From a virus, in the IMG/VR virus record IMGVR_UViG_3300033153_001873, positions 1-24,111 of that record: a DNA stretch of 24,111 nt; one strand, given 5' to 3'. Within the stretch, counting starts at the first letter, position 1; every line of letters starts with the position of its first letter. Made by a program: the position numbers and the translations under genes. The notes under the pieces are model-generated. The model was not told the origin of the DNA, made no database searches, and saw nothing but the letters and a program-made list of their open reading frames with translations. This document shows positions 2,816-13,715 of the stretch, piece by piece.

Positions 2816-4579
2816 GTGGCACTCGACCCTCGCTCCCCTGCGCTCGTCATGGACGCTCTTTCGCTGTTCAACTATGCGAAAGAGAAGAAGCGCCCACTGC
2901 TCAAGAAGTGGATCACGAACTACAACGTGGTCCACAACCGGACGTGGAGCAAGTTCCGTGGTACCGGGTACCCGAAGACTGAAATCCCAGAGATCTACCC
3001 GATTCTGGCGTCCATCACCGCATGGGAGACCGACCAGAACCCTCAGTACTCGGTCACGTCCGAAATGCCGCCGAACTCGCCGTTCGCCATCTCATACGCC
3101 ACCCTCGCCAAGGATCTCGAATGGATCCTGAACACGAACTGGGAAGCGTTGGACTACTCCAACACCGCCCAAACTGTCCTCTGGGACGGCGAGATGTACG
3201 GCATCGGGTTCGCTAAGAACATCTGGTCACCACATACGACTGGTGGCCTCGGTGACGTGCAGATGTGCCGTGTTGACCCGTTCAACATGTACCTCGACCC
3301 GGACGCACGGGCTTGGAAAGACGTTCAGTTCCTCATCGAAACCAAGACCTGCACGAAGGAAGAGGTCAAAAAGCGGTTCCCGAAGGCCCGTGTCGATGAG
3401 TTGTACTTCTCGTCCGACACCCCTGACGGCCCCACACAGCTGGACCAGACCAACAATCCCGGTGCCCAGCGCCCCAACCTCTCACGCTTCCCCACTCCAA
3501 CCACCACAAACAACCCGACGACCACGAACGTCACGAGCACCAAAGCCAAGTACGACATGCCGTCGTCACTGGACAACTCGAACGTCGTCATCATGGAGAT
3601 GTGGTACCAGAAGCTGACGAACTCTGGGTTGACGAACGATAACGACCCAACCCCTGAGACCCCGAACAAGTCTGAAAAGCAGAACGAATGGTTCTGCCTT
3701 GTGTTCTGTGGTGACCAGATTCTCATGCACAAGTCGGCAGAGGAACTCATGGGTGTCAACATGCACCCGTACGCCCGCTACTGCCCCTTGGAAGAAGGCG
3801 AACTCTATGGCTACAGCCTCGTCGAGCAGCTGGCTCCCATGCAGATTTCTATCAACCGACTTTTTGCCTCGGTGGAGCAGAACGCTTGGCTGTCCGGTAA
3901 TCCGATCCTCGTCCAGAAAGATGGGCGTCGTACCAGCATCTCTAATCGTCCCGGTGAAAAGATTGAAGTCAACGATCCGAATCAGGACGTACGCTGGCTG
4001 ACCCCGCCGTCGATCTCTGCCCAGCACATCGAAGTCATCAACAAGCTGATTGAGGAGATGGAACGCATCTCCGGTATGAGTGCGATTGTGCGTGGAGCCA
4101 GCCCTGAAGGTCGCCCATCTGAAGGTGTTGTGAACACCATTCAGGACTCGGCCTTCGTGCGGATCCGTCAACGCCTGCGTAACTACGAGCGGTTCCTCCG
4201 TGAATGCGCTTTGATGCAGGCTTCACTCATCACCCAGTTCTACGACCAAGATCGCGTCATGTCCCGTATCGGGGATGACGGTGAAGGAACCTCGCTACAG
4301 ATCACGGAATCCCATTTCTATGTGCCCGGACCAGATGGAGTCGAACCCCTCAAATACAACCTCCGTGTCAGGGCTGGAGCGAGTGACGCTATCGGTCGAG
4401 AAGCCCGCCTTGCCATGTACGAACGCCTGTTTGCCATTGGGGCGATTGACCACGAGTCACTCCTCAAACTGTCCCGCATACCGGGCTGGCATGAGATCGC
4501 CCAGAAAGTGACACAAGAGAAGACCGCAGCGGGTACGATGGGGCAACCGCCTACGCAGAGAGCAGCTGCACGACGATGA
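2816..4579 (+). CDS. portal protein
   Basis: This 587-residue protein lies directly after the terminase genes. The segment at about residues 143-190 (GGLGDVQMCRVDPFNMYLD, then a DVQFLIETKTC strand and a TKEEVKKRFP helix) is the conserved wing/stem pattern of portal proteins. The long helix near residues 400-470, with ISGMSAIVRG and an NYERFL segment, fits the stem and crown region. A Thr/Asn/Pro-rich low-complexity insert (about 224-242) separates the two halves. The portal forms a dodecameric ring at one capsid vertex, nucleates prohead assembly and is the docking site of the terminase. The start is GTG. The stop overlaps the next ATG (ATGA). Length is within the usual range for short-tailed phage portals. 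Confidence 0.9.
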   Translation: MALDPRSPALVMDALSLFNYAKEKKRPLLKKWITNYNVVHNRTWSKFRGTGYPKTEIPEIYPILASITAWETDQNPQYSVTSEMPPNSPFAISYATLAKDLEWILNTNWEALDYSNTAQTVLWDGEMYGIGFAKNIWSPHTTGGLGDVQMCRVDPFNMYLDPDARAWKDVQFLIETKTCTKEEVKKRFPKARVDELYFSSDTPDGPTQLDQTNNPGAQRPNLSRFPTPTTTNNPTTTNVTSTKAKYDMPSSLDNSNVVIMEMWYQKLTNSGLTNDNDPTPETPNKSEKQNEWFCLVFCGDQILMHKSAEELMGVNMHPYARYCPLEEGELYGYSLVEQLAPMQISINRLFASVEQNAWLSGNPILVQKDGRRTSISNRPGEKIEVNDPNQDVRWLTPPSISAQHIEVINKLIEEMERISGMSAIVRGASPEGRPSEGVVNTIQDSAFVRIRQRLRNYERFLRECALMQASLITQFYDQDRVMSRIGDDGEGTSLQITESHFYVPGPDGVEPLKYNLRVRAGASDAIGREARLAMYERLFAIGAIDHESLLKLSRIPGWHEIAQKVTQEKTAAGTMGQPPTQRAAARR

Positions 4580-5731: not shown

Positions 5732-6081
5732 TGCCAGCTATTCAGCCTTACTCTCATCATCTCCACGACATCACCCCTGAGACGCCTGCTGACGACCCGT
5801 CACATGCAGGCGAGCACAACGAGATCAAAAGGCAGCTTGAAGCACTCGTTGACATAGTGATGTTCCATGGCCTGCTTTCAGAAAGGCCAGACTCCGCCGA
5901 TGTTCCCCTGAACTTCCTTTTCTTTGCAGACGACCTGAACATCGCCTACTGCAACCTCGCTGACGGATGGCATCAAGCGGGGTATGATGAAATCCTCTAT
6001 TCCGCCATGGCAATGGGCCACGCATACGTAACAAATATGACAGTTGGCGCTACGGAAACTTACCCCGGAGAAAGTCACTAA
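5731..6081 (+). CDS. hypothetical virion or fiber-associated protein
   Basis: In this 116-residue protein residues 8-40 carry HHLHDITPETPADDPSHAGEHN followed by an EIKRQLEALVD helix. A His-rich patch with HAxxHN followed by a short helix is common near the N-termini of phage tail-fiber and structural proteins, where it often precedes trimerising regions. The rest contains a FFADDLNIAYCNLADGWHQ segment and a Thr/Gly-rich end, with no known domain. Translation is coupled to the previous gene (TGATG). The next gene follows after two bases. A small fiber adaptor or chaperone is a guess. Confidence 0.6.
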   Translation: MPAIQPYSHHLHDITPETPADDPSHAGEHNEIKRQLEALVDIVMFHGLLSERPDSADVPLNFLFFADDLNIAYCNLADGWHQAGYDEILYSAMAMGHAYVTNMTVGATETYPGESH

Positions 6082-7024: not shown

Positions 7025-9319
7025 ATGTCTACCTATGACACCGGCACATTCGATTCCGGCACGTTTGATGCTCCCGGTGAACTAGGTGGACTTGGAGGTT
7101 CCTCGTCACAGATTGACGCTGAACTGACGCAGGCTCGCTCCTGCCAGATGAACGAAGCTGCGAGCGGCGGCACAGGGTTCCGTGACGGGGAAACCACATG
7201 GATCTCCCACCGTCGCCACGTCAACACCACTCTTCGTGACGTAGCAGCGTTCCGGTTCAAGATATCTGTCGATGTCGGGTCTGCTGACTCCATTGACGCA
7301 GGCGAGTTCCTTTACTACTGGGCTGCGATAAATCAGGATGCTGCCTGCTCCGTTGTGGTTGTAGCCTGTGACGACCCGATTGGCTCTGCAGCTACGAACT
7401 CGCCCAAAGACCTGTACGACTCATACGCTGGGTCCAGTGCGATTGCCCATACTTCAATAGACAACAACAGCACCACCGTTGCGAACACGGTGGATGGGGC
7501 CGACCTCAACACCATGTTGGGAGAAGCTCTCGATAACGCTACGTGGACAGGCACTGAGAAGTACATCGCTGTTGTCATGCAGGGCGACAGCGGTGGCCCT
7601 ACCAACGCTCAGACTCAAGGCGGGGTCTCTGACACGAACCCTGCCACGCTGACGTTCACGGCCACCACAACGATCCCTCCGGTTCAGGAGACTGGCAACG
7701 CTCCCAAAGCTACGTCCCACGAGATCAACGTGTCCGGGTTCCACTGGATCGGCCGCACTGACATCTCATACGACGACGGGCTGGCAGGGCTGGAGGATCA
7801 ACGCAACTACGAGCGGTTCGATCCCATCACCACGATCAACAACACTGTGCATGTCTTCTTTGCTGGTGGCGGCTACGGACAGGTTCTCTCATACTCCCAG
7901 CAGCACCGGGACGTTCTCCTCGCACAGGGCTACTCGTACATCGACGCCAACTACAAGACCACTGGCCTGTACAACGACGCTGTATTCAACGAGAACCAGA
8001 ACCTCGGTTACACATGGCCGCAGCCGATTCAGGACAGCATCTGTCTTGTAGCCCACATCGTCAACGACGACAACGGTGACGGTGACACCGACTACTACCT
8101 GTCAGGCCACAGTGCTGGCTCCCATGTCGCCCTCTCCACCGCCCTGTTCCTCAACGACGAGACCTACTACCAGTCGAACTGCACCCACGAGTACACCCGC
8201 CAGTCCACGTTCTACGGGCTGATGACAGACAACTACCAGTTCGGCTTCGATCAAGGTGTCCCGTCACGTCAGAACCTCAAGCCGCCGAAGGGTGTGTATG
8301 GGTTCTCCACGCCGATCAACCTGCAAGGCACCTACCAAGACACCTCTCTCTCCTCTGCTGTACGAACCAACCTCCGCAACGCACTGGAAGCCCTGTCTGG
8401 TGGAGTGGAAGGTTCGTTCTCTGGTGGTGCCCCCATCAACGACTACGGCGACACAGACCTCTACCTCAACGGTGAGTTCGACCTTCAGGACGCCTACGAC
8501 GGTGGCATGAGAGACTCCCGTTCGGTCTACAACCGGCGTCCCCAGCTTGACCCCCACGGGTTCGGCACCAAGATCGGGACTGGCCGCCACTCGTTCCCAT
8601 GCCCAGTACTCATCGTTGAGGGTTGCGACTCCCGCTACTACGCCTTCAACAACCCGTCACTCCCCTCTGGCCCGTTCGGTCAGGGCGACAACGTGATTGG
8701 CAACACCTCTGGCAACTGGGAAGGAATGGCAGATGCACTGGATAACGCTGGTCACCCATACACGCCAGCGCCAAATGCTGAAGATGCGACGTACGGTTCG
8801 GCATTCACACCCTCCACGGATCGTTGGTCGGGTGACGAAGAAGACCTGAGCGCAGGCCCAGTCGTCTTCACCTCCTACGACGCCGCCGGTATCTCCGGTA
8901 TCGAAGGGCTTGAGTCAGGCCACGACAACAACTACTACTACGAGGGCAAGACGATCCACACCATCAAGGCTGGTGGTTTGGTTGACAAGTGGATCGCTCA
9001 GGTGGAAGGCCCGACCACAGTCTCGATCGCAACTCATGTTGAACCCGCTGTGTCCTCTGCCGGGTACAACGGAGAGGTTGCTTCCATCCCGATTCTTGTC
9101 GGTAGCGGTCAGATTGAGACACTCACCAGCGTGGACTCGTCCCCGACGGGCATCATCTTGGAAGGCCGACTTGCGATCCCCGGCGAGCAGATCGTAACTT
9201 TCACGGCCACAACTGGTGACATCACCGGCATTACCCCACCCACTCCACCTCCTCCTTCGGAGGCTGGGCCGAGAATCCCGAACATTCCAACCATCCCGCA
9301 GGTACCCAGTATCGGATAG
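7025..9319 (+). CDS. tail protein with an alpha/beta-hydrolase (esterase) domain
   Basis: This 764-residue protein has three regions. Residues 1-220 are beta-rich and begin with a Gly/Asp/Thr repeat (DTGTF-DSGTF) typical of minor tail proteins. Residues about 270-660 form an alpha/beta-hydrolase of the carboxylesterase type: an oxyanion loop FFAGGGYG (278-285), a GYSYIDANYK strand, and the nucleophile elbow GHSAG with Ser363. Asp535 follows the strand CPVLIVEGCD, and His633 in SGHD is the likely third triad member (His645 is an alternative). A beta domain follows (about 660-735), then a Pro-rich tail. Likely role: an adsorption protein that removes ester groups from host-surface polysaccharide or lipid. 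The substrate is unknown. A lysis esterase is an alternative because the amidase gene is next. Confidence 0.85.
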   Translation: MSTYDTGTFDSGTFDAPGELGGLGGSSSQIDAELTQARSCQMNEAASGGTGFRDGETTWISHRRHVNTTLRDVAAFRFKISVDVGSADSIDAGEFLYYWAAINQDAACSVVVVACDDPIGSAATNSPKDLYDSYAGSSAIAHTSIDNNSTTVANTVDGADLNTMLGEALDNATWTGTEKYIAVVMQGDSGGPTNAQTQGGVSDTNPATLTFTATTTIPPVQETGNAPKATSHEINVSGFHWIGRTDISYDDGLAGLEDQRNYERFDPITTINNTVHVFFAGGGYGQVLSYSQQHRDVLLAQGYSYIDANYKTTGLYNDAVFNENQNLGYTWPQPIQDSICLVAHIVNDDNGDGDTDYYLSGHSAGSHVALSTALFLNDETYYQSNCTHEYTRQSTFYGLMTDNYQFGFDQGVPSRQNLKPPKGVYGFSTPINLQGTYQDTSLSSAVRTNLRNALEALSGGVEGSFSGGAPINDYGDTDLYLNGEFDLQDAYDGGMRDSRSVYNRRPQLDPHGFGTKIGTGRHSFPCPVLIVEGCDSRYYAFNNPSLPSGPFGQGDNVIGNTSGNWEGMADALDNAGHPYTPAPNAEDATYGSAFTPSTDRWSGDEEDLSAGPVVFTSYDAAGISGIEGLESGHDNNYYYEGKTIHTIKAGGLVDKWIAQVEGPTTVSIATHVEPAVSSAGYNGEVASIPILVGSGQIETLTSVDSSPTGIILEGRLAIPGEQIVTFTATTGDITGITPPTPPPPSEAGPRIPNIPTIPQVPSIG

Positions 9320-9328: not shown

Positions 9329-9874
9329 ATGGCTATCACAGTTCTCGAAAACGGTTTCGTCTTTGTTCCACGCCCCGACTGGGACTACGACGCAGACTAC
9401 CCCTCAGCATCCCTACGCACTCCTGTGTCCACGGTGTACATCCACCACACTGTCACCAACCCCACAGCGAACCCCTGCAACGACGCCCGAACCGTTGAAC
9501 GAGTCCTCGACCAGCGTGGCCTTTCGGGTTACAACTACCTCTCCCACCCTGACGGAACGATTCTGGAACTGGCTGGAGAGAAACGTGGAGCGCATACCAA
9601 GGGTCAGAACTCCACGTCGATAGCCATCTCGCTGATCGGCAACTATGACCATCTTCAGCCCACTCTCATGCAGCTTGCTAACATTGCAAGGTGCATCAAC
9701 CTCCTTCGTCTGAAGGGCGTCCTCGTGCCGGACTTGGAGAAAATCCAGATCCTCCCGCACTCTGCTGCCCCCGGTGCGGCTACCGCCTGTCCCGGTGCCA
9801 ATGTAAGGCTCCCCCGCATAAATGGCCGTACCGCCGTTGAGTGGATTCGGTGGTTTGCTGCAACCGGCGTTTGA
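9329..9874 (+). CDS. N-acetylmuramoyl-L-alanine amidase (endolysin or wall-entry enzyme)
   Basis: This 181-residue, single-domain protein of the Amidase_2/PGRP fold cleaves the bond between N-acetylmuramic acid and L-alanine in peptidoglycan. Visible motifs: YIHHT (residues 37-41) with zinc ligand His39, GYNYLSHPDGTILE (67-80), the core strand SIAISLIGNY (97-106), and PHS...ATACPG with zinc ligands His144 and Cys154. The usual His-Arg-Asp reads His-Ser here. The length matches the catalytic domain alone, so there is no separate wall-binding domain, as in T7 lysozyme. It follows the esterase-domain gene with its own predicted promoter. It may act as endolysin, or as a virion enzyme since it lies among tail genes. 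The family call is firm; its timing is open. Confidence 0.92.
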   Translation: MAITVLENGFVFVPRPDWDYDADYPSASLRTPVSTVYIHHTVTNPTANPCNDARTVERVLDQRGLSGYNYLSHPDGTILELAGEKRGAHTKGQNSTSIAISLIGNYDHLQPTLMQLANIARCINLLRLKGVLVPDLEKIQILPHSAAPGAATACPGANVRLPRINGRTAVEWIRWFAATGV

Positions 9875-10180: not shown

Positions 10181-10531
10181 ATGGCCGTTCGGTCAACTAA
10201 CACGTACTCCGAGGGACTTCAGTCACTCATCCAAGACATTGCGTCCTTGCAGCTTGCACCGGACGCCAATGTTGAGTTCCTGATGCAGGTCCAGCAGATG
10301 ATTATCTCTGAGGCCCAAGCCCCCCTTCTTGCGCAGGCACAGGTGGCCCAACAGGGGCCACCTACACCCGGCAACGTCCAGCCCGCACCGCCCGTTCCCG
10401 GTGTTGGCGAGGGCGGGCCGGGTGGCCTTGCAGGTCTTCTCGGCGTAGGTGGTCCCGGTGGCGGCTCTGCTCCGCTACCTCCCGGCCCCGGTGGTGCAGC
10501 CCCCGGTGAGCTGGATCGCATTCTCGGCTGA
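10181..10531 (+). CDS. Pro/Gly-rich hypothetical protein
   Basis: This 116-residue protein has an N-terminal helical part (about 8-60: YSEGLQSLIQDIASLQL, then a FLMQVQQMIISEAQAPLLAQAQVAQ helix) and a C-terminal half made almost wholly of Pro and Gly with a few hydrophobics, ending ELDRILG. The tail is presumably a disordered linker and the last residues may be a binding motif. It lies just before the scaffold operon. The ribosome-binding site is poor, so it is probably translated by coupling from the small ORF 6 bases upstream. Function unknown; an assembly or minor virion role is a guess. Confidence 0.65.
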   Translation: MAVRSTNTYSEGLQSLIQDIASLQLAPDANVEFLMQVQQMIISEAQAPLLAQAQVAQQGPPTPGNVQPAPPVPGVGEGGPGGLAGLLGVGGPGGGSAPLPPGPGGAAPGELDRILG

Positions 10532-10534
10532 CCC

Positions 10535-10546
10535 CATCTGATACAG
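10535..10546 (+). repeat. 12-base direct repeat CATCTGATACAG, copy 1
   Basis: An exact 12-base word shared with 11463-11474. Each copy lies a few bases after a stop codon and before a highly expressed head gene (scaffold here, major capsid there). It contains the extended -10 element TGATACA, so it is best read as a shared promoter core. Confidence 0.6.
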
Positions 10547-10547
10547 T
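10539..10547 (+). promoter_or_regulatory. extended -10 promoter (TGA-TACAGT) for the scaffold gene
   Basis: TGA plus TACAGT (10542-10547) forms an extended -10 element. Counting 6-7 bases after the hexamer puts the predicted transcription start at about 10554-10555. That is inside the 5' arm of the hairpin at 10546-10575, so RNA started here would keep only two or three bases of that arm and the scaffold ribosome-binding site would stay open. Confidence 0.5.
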
Positions 10548-10581
10548 CCTCCTAGCACCCCATCGCTAGGAGGACTTTCTC
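10546..10581 (+). promoter_or_regulatory. perfect 11-bp hairpin that buries the scaffold ribosome-binding site; possible terminator
   Basis: GTCCTCCTAGC (10546-10556) is the exact reverse complement of GCTAGGAGGAC (10565-10575), with the 8-base loop ACCCCATC. The 3' arm contains AGGAGG (10568-10573), the Shine-Dalgarno of the scaffold gene, 8 bases before its ATG; the 5' arm contains the complementary CCTCCT. TTTCT follows the stem, so it may also act as a weak rho-independent terminator for read-through RNA. Pairing is seen directly; the regulatory role is inferred. Confidence 0.65.
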
Positions 10582-11460
10582 ATGGGTGAGTTTGTCGGAA
10601 CTGAAGAGACTGAGACCCCTGAGGTCGATCGTTCACAGAACATTGTGGACGACCTGAACGAGATGCTGGCTGACACGGACACCCAGCCCGTGCAGGAAGA
10701 GGTTGCGCCTGAGCCGCAGCCTGAGCCGGAAGCCCCCCAGTACATTCAGGTGGGTGAGGCGCAGTACGACGCTGCGATGGCTGAGGACATCAACCAGCTT
10801 GTCAACTGGGCGTCACAGCTCACCCCTGAGCAGTACGAGATCGTCAATCAGGCTCTGTACGGCCAGCCTGAGCAGGCACCAGAACCCACGCCGGAACCCA
10901 CCCCTGAGCCTGACCCCATCTCCTATGATGGCGTCGATGAGGAAACGGCTCAGATTCTCCGTCGTCAGGAAGAGGAGCTGGAAGCACTCAAGGCCCGCCT
11001 TGAGGAGACTGCCCAGCAGTCCGCATCCACTCATGCTGAAGTCGCGCAGCGCGAGGCGGCAGAAGCGCAGGCTCAGTTCGTTGCGATAGAGCAGAACGTC
11101 CAGCAGCAGCTTGCTGAACAGTACGGCTTCGATCAGGCTGACTTCGTGCGTGCCACTGAGGTCGCTGGCGAGATGGGACTGCTCCGTGGCATGATCGCCC
11201 AGCACGGCATGGAGGACGGGATCCGTCAGACCATGATGAGTGCCATCTACGCCGATGAGGGTCTGCGCCAGAAGGTTGTTGGCAACACTGTCGATCAGGG
11301 CGTGCAGCAGAAGCTGGCCGATGAGCGCCGTGACGCACAGGCTGCACTCAACCCGCAGGGTGGAACCAACATCCCGTCGCAGGATGCACTCAACCTTCCG
11401 ATCTCCGAGAAGCGTGCAGCCATGAAGGCCGACATCGACAAGATGCTTGGCAATCTGTAA
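10582..11460 (+). CDS. capsid scaffolding protein
   Basis: This 292-residue, very acidic protein lies directly upstream of the major capsid gene, the usual place of the scaffold. Residues 36-55 and 94-112 are Pro/Glu repeats (PEPQPEPE and EPTPEPTPEPDP). Residues about 116-182 are a strongly predicted coiled coil rich in Glu, Gln and Ala, followed by a helical part and a basic, helical C-terminus (about 275-292, EKRAAMKADIDKM) of the kind that binds coat protein. Scaffolds guide prohead assembly and leave before or during packaging. No protease is visible in the window. The gene has a strong AGGAGG site that can be sequestered by the hairpin upstream. Confidence 0.82.
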   Translation: MGEFVGTEETETPEVDRSQNIVDDLNEMLADTDTQPVQEEVAPEPQPEPEAPQYIQVGEAQYDAAMAEDINQLVNWASQLTPEQYEIVNQALYGQPEQAPEPTPEPTPEPDPISYDGVDEETAQILRRQEEELEALKARLEETAQQSASTHAEVAQREAAEAQAQFVAIEQNVQQQLAEQYGFDQADFVRATEVAGEMGLLRGMIAQHGMEDGIRQTMMSAIYADEGLRQKVVGNTVDQGVQQKLADERRDAQAALNPQGGTNIPSQDALNLPISEKRAAMKADIDKMLGNL

Positions 11461-11558
11461 CTCATCTGATACAGCATGGTCACTTGTTGCGATGAGATAC
11501 GGCTACTATTACTTCGGTAAGTAACCACTACTGATCGCACCTGATAGGAGAGCGACTC
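11461..11558 (+). promoter_or_regulatory. promoter and leader of the major capsid gene
   Basis: This 98-base gap is the most AT-rich stretch nearby. It holds the extended -10 word TGATACAGC (11467-11475). It also holds a candidate promoter TTGTTG (11484-11489), 17 bases, TATTAC (11507-11512); TACTAT at 11504-11509 is an alternative -10. A short UUCG-tetraloop hairpin, TTAC-TTCG-GTAA, lies at 11509-11520. A TGATAGGAG word (11542-11550) ends 8 bases before the ATG and supplies the Shine-Dalgarno AGGAG (11546-11550). The sites are read by eye; which promoter is used is unknown. Confidence 0.5.
11463..11474 (+). repeat. 12-base direct repeat CATCTGATACAG, copy 2
   Basis: Identical to 10535-10546. 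It starts two bases after the scaffold stop codon. Here the -10 hexamer reads TACAGC and no hairpin follows, unlike copy 1. Confidence 0.6.
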
Positions 11559-12521
11559 ATGGCAACACCCATTGGTGCCGATCATATCTCGGCCATCGTT
11601 AACCGGTACCTGATGCCGGACATCATCGACCTTGCGTACGACGGAAACCCGTTGTTCTACCGCTTGCACAACAGCAACCGGCGCATGGTGGACGGTGGAC
11701 CGCACATCGAGCAGCCCGTGATGAACTCGCAGTTCACCGCTGGTGGATCGTTCTCGGATCTTGAGACCCTCGACATGACGCCGCAGGACACGCTCCGCAC
11801 CGTCGCTTGGGACTGGAAAGAGAAGTACGTCCCGGTTGCGTTCTCGAACCTCACCATGGTGAAGCTGAACACCTCTGACTCGATCGCCAACGGCGTTGAG
11901 GTTCAGGTGCAGCAGGCTTCGATGACCATGGCTGAGCTTCTCGGTCAGGGCCTCTACTCCGATGGCAGCGATGCCAAGGAGATCGACGGTCTTCAGTCCG
12001 CCATCGACACCACTGGCACCTACGGCGGCATCGCTCGCTCTGGCTCCACTGGCTGGTGGAACGGTGTCACCGACTCGAACCTGAACCTGACGCAGGACTT
12101 CGCCACGGCGATGCCCGAACTCAACACGGCTCAGACCTCGGTCACGGTTGGCGGTCGTTTCCCGACCATCGCAGTCACCAACTCCGACGTGTACAACGCG
12201 GTTTGGAACATGCTGGTTGAGAAGCAGAACTTCTACACCGTCAACGAGAAGGACACGCAGCTCGCCGCTGCTGGCTTCAACAACTTCCTCTTCAACGGCA
12301 CCCCGTTCGTTGTGGATCCGAAGTGCCCTGCCGAAGAGCTGTACTTCCTCAACGAGGACTTCATCAAGCTCGTCGTCACGCCGCTCTCGGACTTCCGCAT
12401 GGAGCCGTTCCAGCAGGCATTCAATCAGGCTGCCATCGGAGCGAAGCTGCTCTGGACCGGTAACCTGATCGTCACCGCACCCAAGCTCCAGTACCGTGGT
12501 ACTGGCGTACTCAGCGCCTAA
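11559..12521 (+). CDS. major capsid protein
   Basis: This 320-residue protein follows the scaffold and precedes a decoration-like gene. The pattern fits a capsid protein of the HK97 fold: an N-terminal region (YLMPDIIDLAYDGNPLFYRL), an extended-loop-like stretch with TVAWDWKEKYVPVAFSNL (about 86-103), a long spine-type helix (about 112-135, IANGVEVQVQQASMTMAELLGQ), and a beta-rich C-terminal part ending ApKLQYRGTGVLSA. It forms the icosahedral shell. The Shine-Dalgarno AGGAG is 8 bases upstream. No N-terminal delta domain precedes it, consistent with a separate scaffold. Assignment by position, length and pattern; close relatives were not searched. Confidence 0.88.
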   Translation: MATPIGADHISAIVNRYLMPDIIDLAYDGNPLFYRLHNSNRRMVDGGPHIEQPVMNSQFTAGGSFSDLETLDMTPQDTLRTVAWDWKEKYVPVAFSNLTMVKLNTSDSIANGVEVQVQQASMTMAELLGQGLYSDGSDAKEIDGLQSAIDTTGTYGGIARSGSTGWWNGVTDSNLNLTQDFATAMPELNTAQTSVTVGGRFPTIAVTNSDVYNAVWNMLVEKQNFYTVNEKDTQLAAAGFNNFLFNGTPFVVDPKCPAEELYFLNEDFIKLVVTPLSDFRMEPFQQAFNQAAIGAKLLWTGNLIVTAPKLQYRGTGVLSA

Positions 12522-12530
12522 TAGGAGGCG
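12515..12530 (+). promoter_or_regulatory. small hairpin over the capsid stop codon and the next ribosome-binding site
   Basis: CGCCT (12515-12519) can pair with AGGCG (12526-12530) across a 6-base loop, covering the capsid TAA (12519-12521) and part of AGGAGG (12523-12528). Ribosomes finishing the capsid gene would melt it, coupling decoration synthesis to capsid synthesis. The stem is only 5 bp, so this is tentative. Confidence 0.3.
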
Positions 12531-12533
12531 AAC

Positions 12534-13022
12534 ATGGCAACAGCAAACATCACGCCGCCTACAGTTCTGGCGACGATCGACTACAGCACTGGTAAGGGCG
12601 AGAATGACATCCCTCTGGTGTGGGCACGCAATGTCACGGGCTACCCCGCTGACTCGGCTGTCGAAGTTGGAGATGCGGTTTCGACCGTCGCTCCGACCGT
12701 TGGCACCTATGTGGACGGAAAGCTCGTCCCCGGCTCCTCCAACCCCCTGTCGGTTGAGCCTGCTGCGTCTGGCACTGAGGGTCTCGTCGCTGGTGTTGCG
12801 CTGAACAGCGCAGCTGCTGGTGAGATCGTCCGTGTCGCTGACATCGGGTACGTCCGTTCCGTTGGAGCTGCCGAAGGTGACGGGCTTTCGCCCAACACTG
12901 GCGGTGTCTGCTCCGCTGGTGGCGCCCTCGGCGCAACCGACGCCTTCGTGGCACTCGGTGACGACATCCCGAACTTCTACGACGCGGTGTCCGCCACGCT
13001 GGTCCGCACCCGTAGCGCCTAG
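12534..13022 (+). CDS. probable head decoration/stabilisation protein
   Basis: This 162-residue, small, Ala/Gly/Val-rich, beta-type protein comes immediately after the major capsid gene. The pattern PADSAVEVGDAV, later GLVAGVALNSAAAGEIVRVADIG, resembles capsid decoration proteins of the DUF2190 kind, in which a 'G.al..aaaGe.v.v...G.v' segment is typical. Decoration proteins bind the outside of the expanded capsid and stabilise it. It has a strong AGGAGG site 5 bases upstream of the ATG. A rho-independent terminator follows, so it is the last gene of the head operon. The position is strong, the family call moderate. Confidence 0.7.
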   Translation: MATANITPPTVLATIDYSTGKGENDIPLVWARNVTGYPADSAVEVGDAVSTVAPTVGTYVDGKLVPGSSNPLSVEPAASGTEGLVAGVALNSAAAGEIVRVADIGYVRSVGAAEGDGLSPNTGGVCSAGGALGATDAFVALGDDIPNFYDAVSATLVRTRSA

Positions 13023-13071
13023 TTCATCCCACCCGAGGGGACTCCTCCACCCCTCACCTCCCACTGAGATT

Positions 13072-13106
13072 GACCTCCCGGTATCACCGGGGGGTCTTTC
13101 TCGTTT
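13072..13106 (+). terminator. rho-independent terminator after the capsid operon
   Basis: GACCTCCCGGT (13072-13082) pairs with ACCGGGGGGTC (13086-13096) over 11 positions with one T-G wobble and a 3-base loop. It is followed by the T-rich tail TTTCTCGTTT (13097-13106). A weaker 6-bp inverted repeat, GAGGGG...CCCCTC, lies upstream at about 13035-13055. The rest of the 102-base gap holds only the next promoter. Confidence 0.85.
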
Positions 13107-13107
13107 C

Positions 13108-13116
13108 TGATACACT
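13108..13116 (+). promoter_or_regulatory. extended -10 promoter (TGA-TACACT)
   Basis: TGA-TACACT lies two bases after the terminator T-tract and ends 8 bases before the ATG at 13125. No Shine-Dalgarno precedes that ATG, so a leaderless or nearly leaderless transcript is predicted. It shares the TCTGATA core with the sites at 42, 10538 and 11466. Confidence 0.55.
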
Positions 13117-13124
13117 CCTAACTC

Positions 13125-13715
13125 ATGGAGATGAATCCGACCACCCCAGTCCGTGTCAAGTCGAACGAGGACGAAGAGTTCAAGTTCAAGTTCGAGCGTG
13201 AGACCTACGTCCTTGGACCGAACGCTGAGGTGTTCTGGCCGTGGAACGTGGCATGTCATCTGTTGGGTGACCCGACACTCAAGAACGAGCCTGCGTTCGC
13301 CAACGCCGATTACGTCCGTAAGCACGCCCAGAACATGTTGGGTGGCGGCAAGCGGATCGGTTCTGGTGGCGTGCTCCACAACCCCATCTCGTGGGATAAG
13401 TGGGAGCCGGTCAAGCCTTCCATCGACGTGTTCTCCATGGACGGCACCCAGATCCTGATGGCGTACCAGACGCCTCACAACGCTGAGACGTTCACCACCG
13501 GGTACACCGAGTCGGACATGAAGGTCAAGATCGCCCAGCTTGAACAACAGATGCAGAACATGAAGATGTCGATGGAGCAGGACGGAACCCCGTTCGTAGC
13601 TACCGAGTCTTCAGCTGGCGAGGATCAGGTCACGACGATGGAGGAGTTGCCCGAAGATGGCGGACCCAAGACTCGACCCCGACGACGTACTCCGCAGGCT
13701 CCAGCTAGCTCGTAA
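13125..13715 (+). CDS. hypothetical protein, possible head or connector component
   Basis: In this 196-residue protein the N-terminal 100 residues look like a mixed alpha/beta domain (EEFKFKFERETYVLGPNAEVFWPWNVACHLLG is the core, with conserved-looking Trp and Pro). Residues about 125-150 form a Met/Gln-rich amphipathic helix (MKVKIAQLEQQMQNMKMSM), and the last 45 residues are acidic then basic and probably disordered. Its place just after the capsid operon suggests a head or connector accessory protein, but I do not recognise the family. The ATG at 13125 is chosen from the promoter spacing; an in-frame ATG at 13131 is an alternative. Its 3' end overlaps the next gene by 59 bases. Confidence 0.75.
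   Translation: MEMNPTTPVRVKSNEDEEFKFKFERETYVLGPNAEVFWPWNVACHLLGDPTLKNEPAFANADYVRKHAQNMLGGGKRIGSGGVLHNPISWDKWEPVKPSIDVFSMDGTQILMAYQTPHNAETFTTGYTESDMKVKIAQLEQQMQNMKMSMEQDGTPFVATESSAGEDQVTTMEELPEDGGPKTRPRRRTPQAPASS

Follow-up and report, generated by a model that had tools for sequence, protein, structure and literature searches.

The leader of the scaffold-position gene is predicted to act as a translation switch that distinguishes transcripts by their origin, a reading which we hold to be somewhat more probable than its alternatives taken together. A polymerase that has already transcribed the packaging and portal genes upstream would produce an RNA in which 10545-10576 is folded as a 12-bp hairpin, burying the scaffold Shine-Dalgarno (SD) sequence, and little scaffold protein would be made from such read-through RNA. 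The gene's own extended -10 promoter would give an RNA beginning at about 10555, past the 5' arm of the hairpin, with a 26-28-nt leader carrying the identical SD in open form. Scaffold output would thus be set by the gene's own promoter and insulated from read-through. The computed basis for this prediction consists of the hairpin, the conservation of the promoter, the geometry of the start site, the difference in accessibility between the two RNAs, and the layout of two genes in the relative L007. Read-through RNA is presumably present in sufficient amount, the two RNAs would differ in translation, and insulation may be the purpose for which the arrangement was selected.

Genomic context

The window, the whole stretch of DNA analysed here, spans positions 1-24,111 of an IMG/VR virus record that is 44,266 bases long. 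Its relevant features are as follows.

41-51, + strand: promoter-like TCTGATAGTGT; the ORF that follows it, at 59, looks leaderless
861-2510: terminase, a packaging gene
2816-4579: portal
9329-9874: amidase, lysis-type
10181-10531, + strand: small conserved gene upstream of the hairpin, its stop codon 13 nt before the stem
10537-10547, + strand: extended -10 element TCTGATACAGT; G000 (the window's genome), G001/G002 and G003 all keep TCTGATACnnT ahead of the scaffold gene
10545-10556, + strand: 5' arm (anti-SD), which takes in the last bases of the -10 and those between it and the start site
10554-10556, + strand: predicted transcription start, best at 10555-10556, from the spacing at apparently leaderless genes
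10565-10576, + strand: 3' arm
10568-10573, + strand: Shine-Dalgarno AGGAGG, 8 nt before the ATG at 10582
10582-11460, + strand: scaffold-position gene, 292 aa, immediately 5' of the major capsid gene
11465-11475, + strand: the promoter element again (TCTGATACAGC), in a second copy that precedes the major capsid gene and has no occluding hairpin
11559-12521, + strand: major capsid protein (MCP) gene (PHROG major head protein, E 3.6e-49)
13106-13116, + strand: the promoter element once more, straight after a terminator (13072-13096) and before an apparently leaderless gene at 13125

The gene at 10582-11460 is called scaffold by position and composition only (acidic/proline-rich). It has relatives in L005, L007, and L026, and its protein gave no informative match among families or solved structures.

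Promoter and start site

The initial annotation had placed an extended -10 across the 5' arm of a hairpin, and TGATACAGT is indeed found at 10539-10547. That this is a real promoter is well supported by conservation. Comparing G000 with its relatives G001 and G003, exact matches to TCTGATACnnT number two, three, and three respectively, all eight on the forward strand and none on the reverse, about 20-75-fold above the expectation of 0.04-0.1 per genome. The places of the element are syntenic, with the scaffold gene preceded by it in three of three lineages and the capsid gene in two of three. It also stands before the post-capsid gene and the next small gene in three of three lineages, with a terminator directly upstream in the window and in L005. 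Near matches occur at the first ORF of the window (41) and at two capsid genes, the window's own (11465) and that of L007 (3195). No -35 box is evident by eye at these promoters.

The start codon lies 8 or 9 nt past the last T of the -10 at 59 and 13125 in the window, at 4857 in L007, at an ATG after 15914 in G003, and at a GTG near 58 in G001, such that these genes look leaderless; for the pair formed by 13125 and its L007 counterpart, the N-termini of related proteins support the start codon. Transferred to the scaffold promoter, this spacing predicts initiation where the 5' arm ends, at 10555-10556. Counting +7 in the textbook manner yields 10554, the value of the earlier estimate (about 10554, near the end of that arm). 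Promoter elements 8-9 nt before start codons, as at 41-59 of the window, are also seen at L018 5915 and L019 40, which are probable leaderless genes. The order at 13072-13125 of the window is terminator, shared promoter, and apparently leaderless gene; the same terminator-promoter order recurs at about 7500-7571 of L005, but there the gene has an SD leader. The probable leaderless genes suggest a host that translates leaderless mRNA well.

Hairpin across the scaffold ribosome-binding site

The 11-bp stem first described at 10546-10556/10565-10575 is exact, and lengthens through the pair A10545-T10576 to a perfect 12 bp (10545-10556/10565-10576) with a loop of 8 nt. The AGGAGG that it was said to hide lies wholly inside the 3' arm, and the TTTCT reported to follow it is present at 10576-10580. 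Three further outer pairs give arms of 10539-10556 and 10565-10582 with 89% complementarity, extending as far as the A of the scaffold start codon. Folding of a 121-nt region yielded -46.3 kcal/mol (z = -3.1), with an equally stable structure in one of 200 shuffles. The 44-kb genome contains two perfect inverted repeats of at least 11 bp with a loop of at most 20 nt, compared with about 0.5 expected (a value slightly inflated by runs of N), and the scaffold hairpin is the only one of the two to cover the ribosome site of a called gene. No Rfam family was matched in the window when gathering thresholds were applied. As the stop codon of the small upstream gene precedes the stem by 13 nt, ribosomes terminating at that codon would be expected to leave most of the stem intact.

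Predicted accessibility of the ribosome site

The SD of the window's scaffold gene has a predicted unpaired probability of 0.0002 in read-through RNA versus 0.449 in own-promoter RNA, the latter close to the genome median of 0.41. This computed folding bears out the proposal that RNA started at the gene's own promoter would expose the site. The site is the most occluded of the 41 SD-bearing starts in the record, and none of 300 shuffled upstream segments closed it to the same degree. Any start site from about 10550 onwards opens the SD, and the accessibility result is therefore independent of the exact position of initiation.

Two genes of L007 behave similarly. Its scaffold SD has an unpaired probability of 0.0010 in read-through RNA versus 0.365 in its own RNA (0 of 300 shuffles as low), and its capsid SD 0.0053 versus 0.322 (0.7% of shuffles as low), ranking first and third in occlusion among 27 starts. 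Shuffling only the 11 nt around -10/+1, with pyrimidine content kept, gave p < 0.0003 for the window's scaffold gene, p = 0.016-0.026 for the scaffold gene of L007, and p ~0.001 for its capsid gene. Combined by Fisher's method, the five promoter-bearing loci outside the site of discovery gave p ~0.003, where the loci are not fully independent and both strong ones belong to L007. The capsid gene of the window has the promoter, and shows no SD occlusion in read-through RNA.

Conservation in relatives

Protein-based scans of IMG/VR identified the near lineages G001/G002, G003, and L026, and the distant L011/L015. Protein-based scans of GTDB genomes, and one portal scan likewise, found no relatives, and INPHARED offered no DNA match and only MCP relatives of <30% identity, too far for leader comparison.

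L007 shares 71% identity with the window in MCP and about 30% in the scaffold protein. Its scaffold hairpin (CGGTTCTCC/GGAGGACTG) has nine pairs, including two G-U, and a loop of 10, with the 5' arm likewise sitting between the -10 and the start site. The hairpin of its capsid gene (CTCCTCGG/CCGAGGAG) has eight Watson-Crick pairs and a loop of 36, and the 5' arm ends just before the predicted start site. Within the part that they share, the arms of L007 and the window differ on one side only (A-U to G-U, C-G to U-G), so that pairing is consistent with these changes but not proven by covariation. As to the covariation sought between the arms in relatives, pairing is kept in L007 and strong covariation is absent. 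L007 is the only informative diverged relative, and all significant support outside the discovery locus comes from this single genome.

The nested arrangement is kept at the two L007 genes but not in L005/L006, which lack the nested arm. These keep the promoter, but their stem is just 7 bp long, with a 5' arm that shares bases with the upstream stop codon. Their SD is predicted to be unpaired with a probability of 0.17 in read-through RNA versus 0.60 in own RNA, an occlusion that is not significant (10% of shuffles as low). Given that overlap and the lack of significance, the 7-bp stem of L005 was not counted as a third case. As L005/L006 retain the promoter without the nested arm, the device is not universal. 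In L026 (59% identity in the capsid protein), a strong terminator-like hairpin with TTTTT lies at 10247-10285, in the gap that separates the scaffold gene from the conserved small gene, and is a possible functional substitute for the hairpin of the window. In the distant L011, the genes nearly overlap. The nested hairpin is thus lineage-specific, with insulation elsewhere achieved by other means or not at all.

A pattern scan across IMG/VR for promoter, anti-SD, and SD returned 16 stretches, with a plausible start (an ATG at the right spacing) only in L007; the others look like chance. The capsid-gene leader of L005, at about 5950-5995, contains the nested stems GTGTAAC/GTTACAC and TTGTCCC/GGGACAA just before an AGGAG.

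Alternative explanations

The pairing might be a by-product of pyrimidine-rich promoter starts complementing purine-rich SD sequences, with the long stem of the window a chance extension that plays no role. At several genes the promoter start region is C/T-rich, and neither L005 nor the capsid gene of the window shows significant pairing, in keeping with such an origin. However, composition-preserving shuffles reject it at three loci and the pairs reach beyond the SD (CTAGC/GCTAG, CGG/CCG), leaving this explanation unlikely. Intrinsic termination is also quite unlikely; in this reading the hairpin would be a terminator laid over the promoter, stopping upstream polymerases, and RNA from the gene's own promoter would be unable to form it. 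The CTTTCTC after the 12-bp stem resembles TTTCTCGTTT, which forms the tail of the terminator at 13072-13096. The same promoter element adjoins both this terminator and another in L005, and the terminator-like hairpin of L026 also precedes the scaffold gene. Against this, the CUUUCUC tail is a weak U tract that was unflagged by a terminator scan, and the two hairpins of L007 lack a U tract, the bases after them being AATG and TCCCCC; the feature common to all is occlusion of the SD. With the U tract poor in the window and absent in L007, termination is a weaker reading than a translation switch, and the original proposal that read-through RNA would fold and be terminated or untranslatable is retained for the predicted closure of the site, with termination finding no support.

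The inverted repeat could also act at the DNA level, as an operator bound by a dimeric regulator or as another protein-bound element over the promoter, given that a near-perfect dyad spans the -10 and start site with arm centres about two helical turns apart. The 11-nt half-site, however, has no second copy within one mismatch in the 44-kb genome, and the arms of L007 differ in sequence and are spaced by 10 and 36 nt whilst the SD is always included in the pairing. As the arm is single-copy, and arm sequence and spacing vary whilst SD pairing stays, an operator is very unlikely. There is only a slight chance that the hairpin, which sits just 3' of the upstream gene's stop codon, is a processing or 3'-end-protecting structure of the upstream mRNA, since this would not account for three loci at which -10, start site, and SD coincide.

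Comparison with known systems

The mechanism proposed here, a translation switch set by transcript origin, is already known. In bacteriophage T4, a hairpin hides the ribosome site of gene e (lysozyme) and of I-TevI in read-through RNA; for gene e, the promoter is situated in the sequence that encodes the 5' strand, RNA initiated at that point lacks the strand and is translated, and the structure cuts lysozyme synthesis about 100-fold, whilst soc and gene 49 are named as further genes with inhibitory structures (review PMC3014915). The likeness predicted for the window comprises an SD sequestered in upstream RNA, a promoter lying within the 5'-strand sequence with its start site after that strand, and an open SD in the gene's own RNA. 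Given the precedent of gene e and I-TevI, the switch in the window would be a new case of a known mechanism, apparently unrelated and in a new place. T4 employs its own late promoter (TATAAATA), whereas the window phage employs an extended -10 used at several genes. Furthermore, the T4 device delays expression in time, whilst the role here is likely insulation inside a structural operon, and the genes concerned are e and I-TevI in T4 but the scaffold gene and, in L007, the capsid gene here.

The transposase genes of IS10 and IS50 are similarly protected, with a structure formed only in RNA from outside blocking the ribosome site, and the native RNA lacking the 5' strand. The resemblance lies in protection of the ribosome site against read-through; IS10 and IS50 use transposon-end repeats, unlike the promoter-nested arm within a phage operon predicted here. 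Inverted repeats beside translation starts are also known from the extended start-associated sequences (ESAS) of cluster K mycobacteriophages, with a 13-bp consensus (GGGATAGGAGCCC) present in many copies at non-structural genes and 17-bp inverted repeats upstream (PMC3203893). ESAS are thus many-copy with repeats upstream of the consensus, whereas the hairpin of the window is single-copy and includes the SD; the ESAS 13-mer is not found at the scaffold start, and the arm sequence occurs once in the genome.

More tentatively, and less probably than not, these phages may form a family with a standard extended -10 whose start region doubles as an anti-SD. Capsid-assembly genes would then be translated only from their own transcripts, the amounts of scaffold and capsid protein would be independent of the polycistronic packaging-portal RNA, and some lineages would have swapped the hairpin for a terminator. 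If the switch is real, the trick of T4 gene e would be carried to an unrelated, uncultured phage group, and would reach the genes for scaffold and capsid, proteins whose ratios govern assembly. It would also suggest that promoter-nested ribosome-site hairpins serve insulation within an operon, beyond timing alone. An anti-SD between the -10 and +1 provides a search rule for further cases.

Additional features

In its structural region the window encodes a 764-aa protein (7025-9319) that contains GHSAG, a motif typical for serine hydrolases, and has no PHROG match. The lysis-type amidase lies within the head gene block, 5' of the scaffold gene in the window and 3' of it in L007 (2500-3039). An open frame of 750 aa that runs antisense to the capsid gene (11295-13547, minus strand) is probably an artefact of codon bias. 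The right part of the phage genome carries a tRNA-Asn gene (GTT) at 2627-2699 of L017, corresponding to about 36726-36798 of G000.
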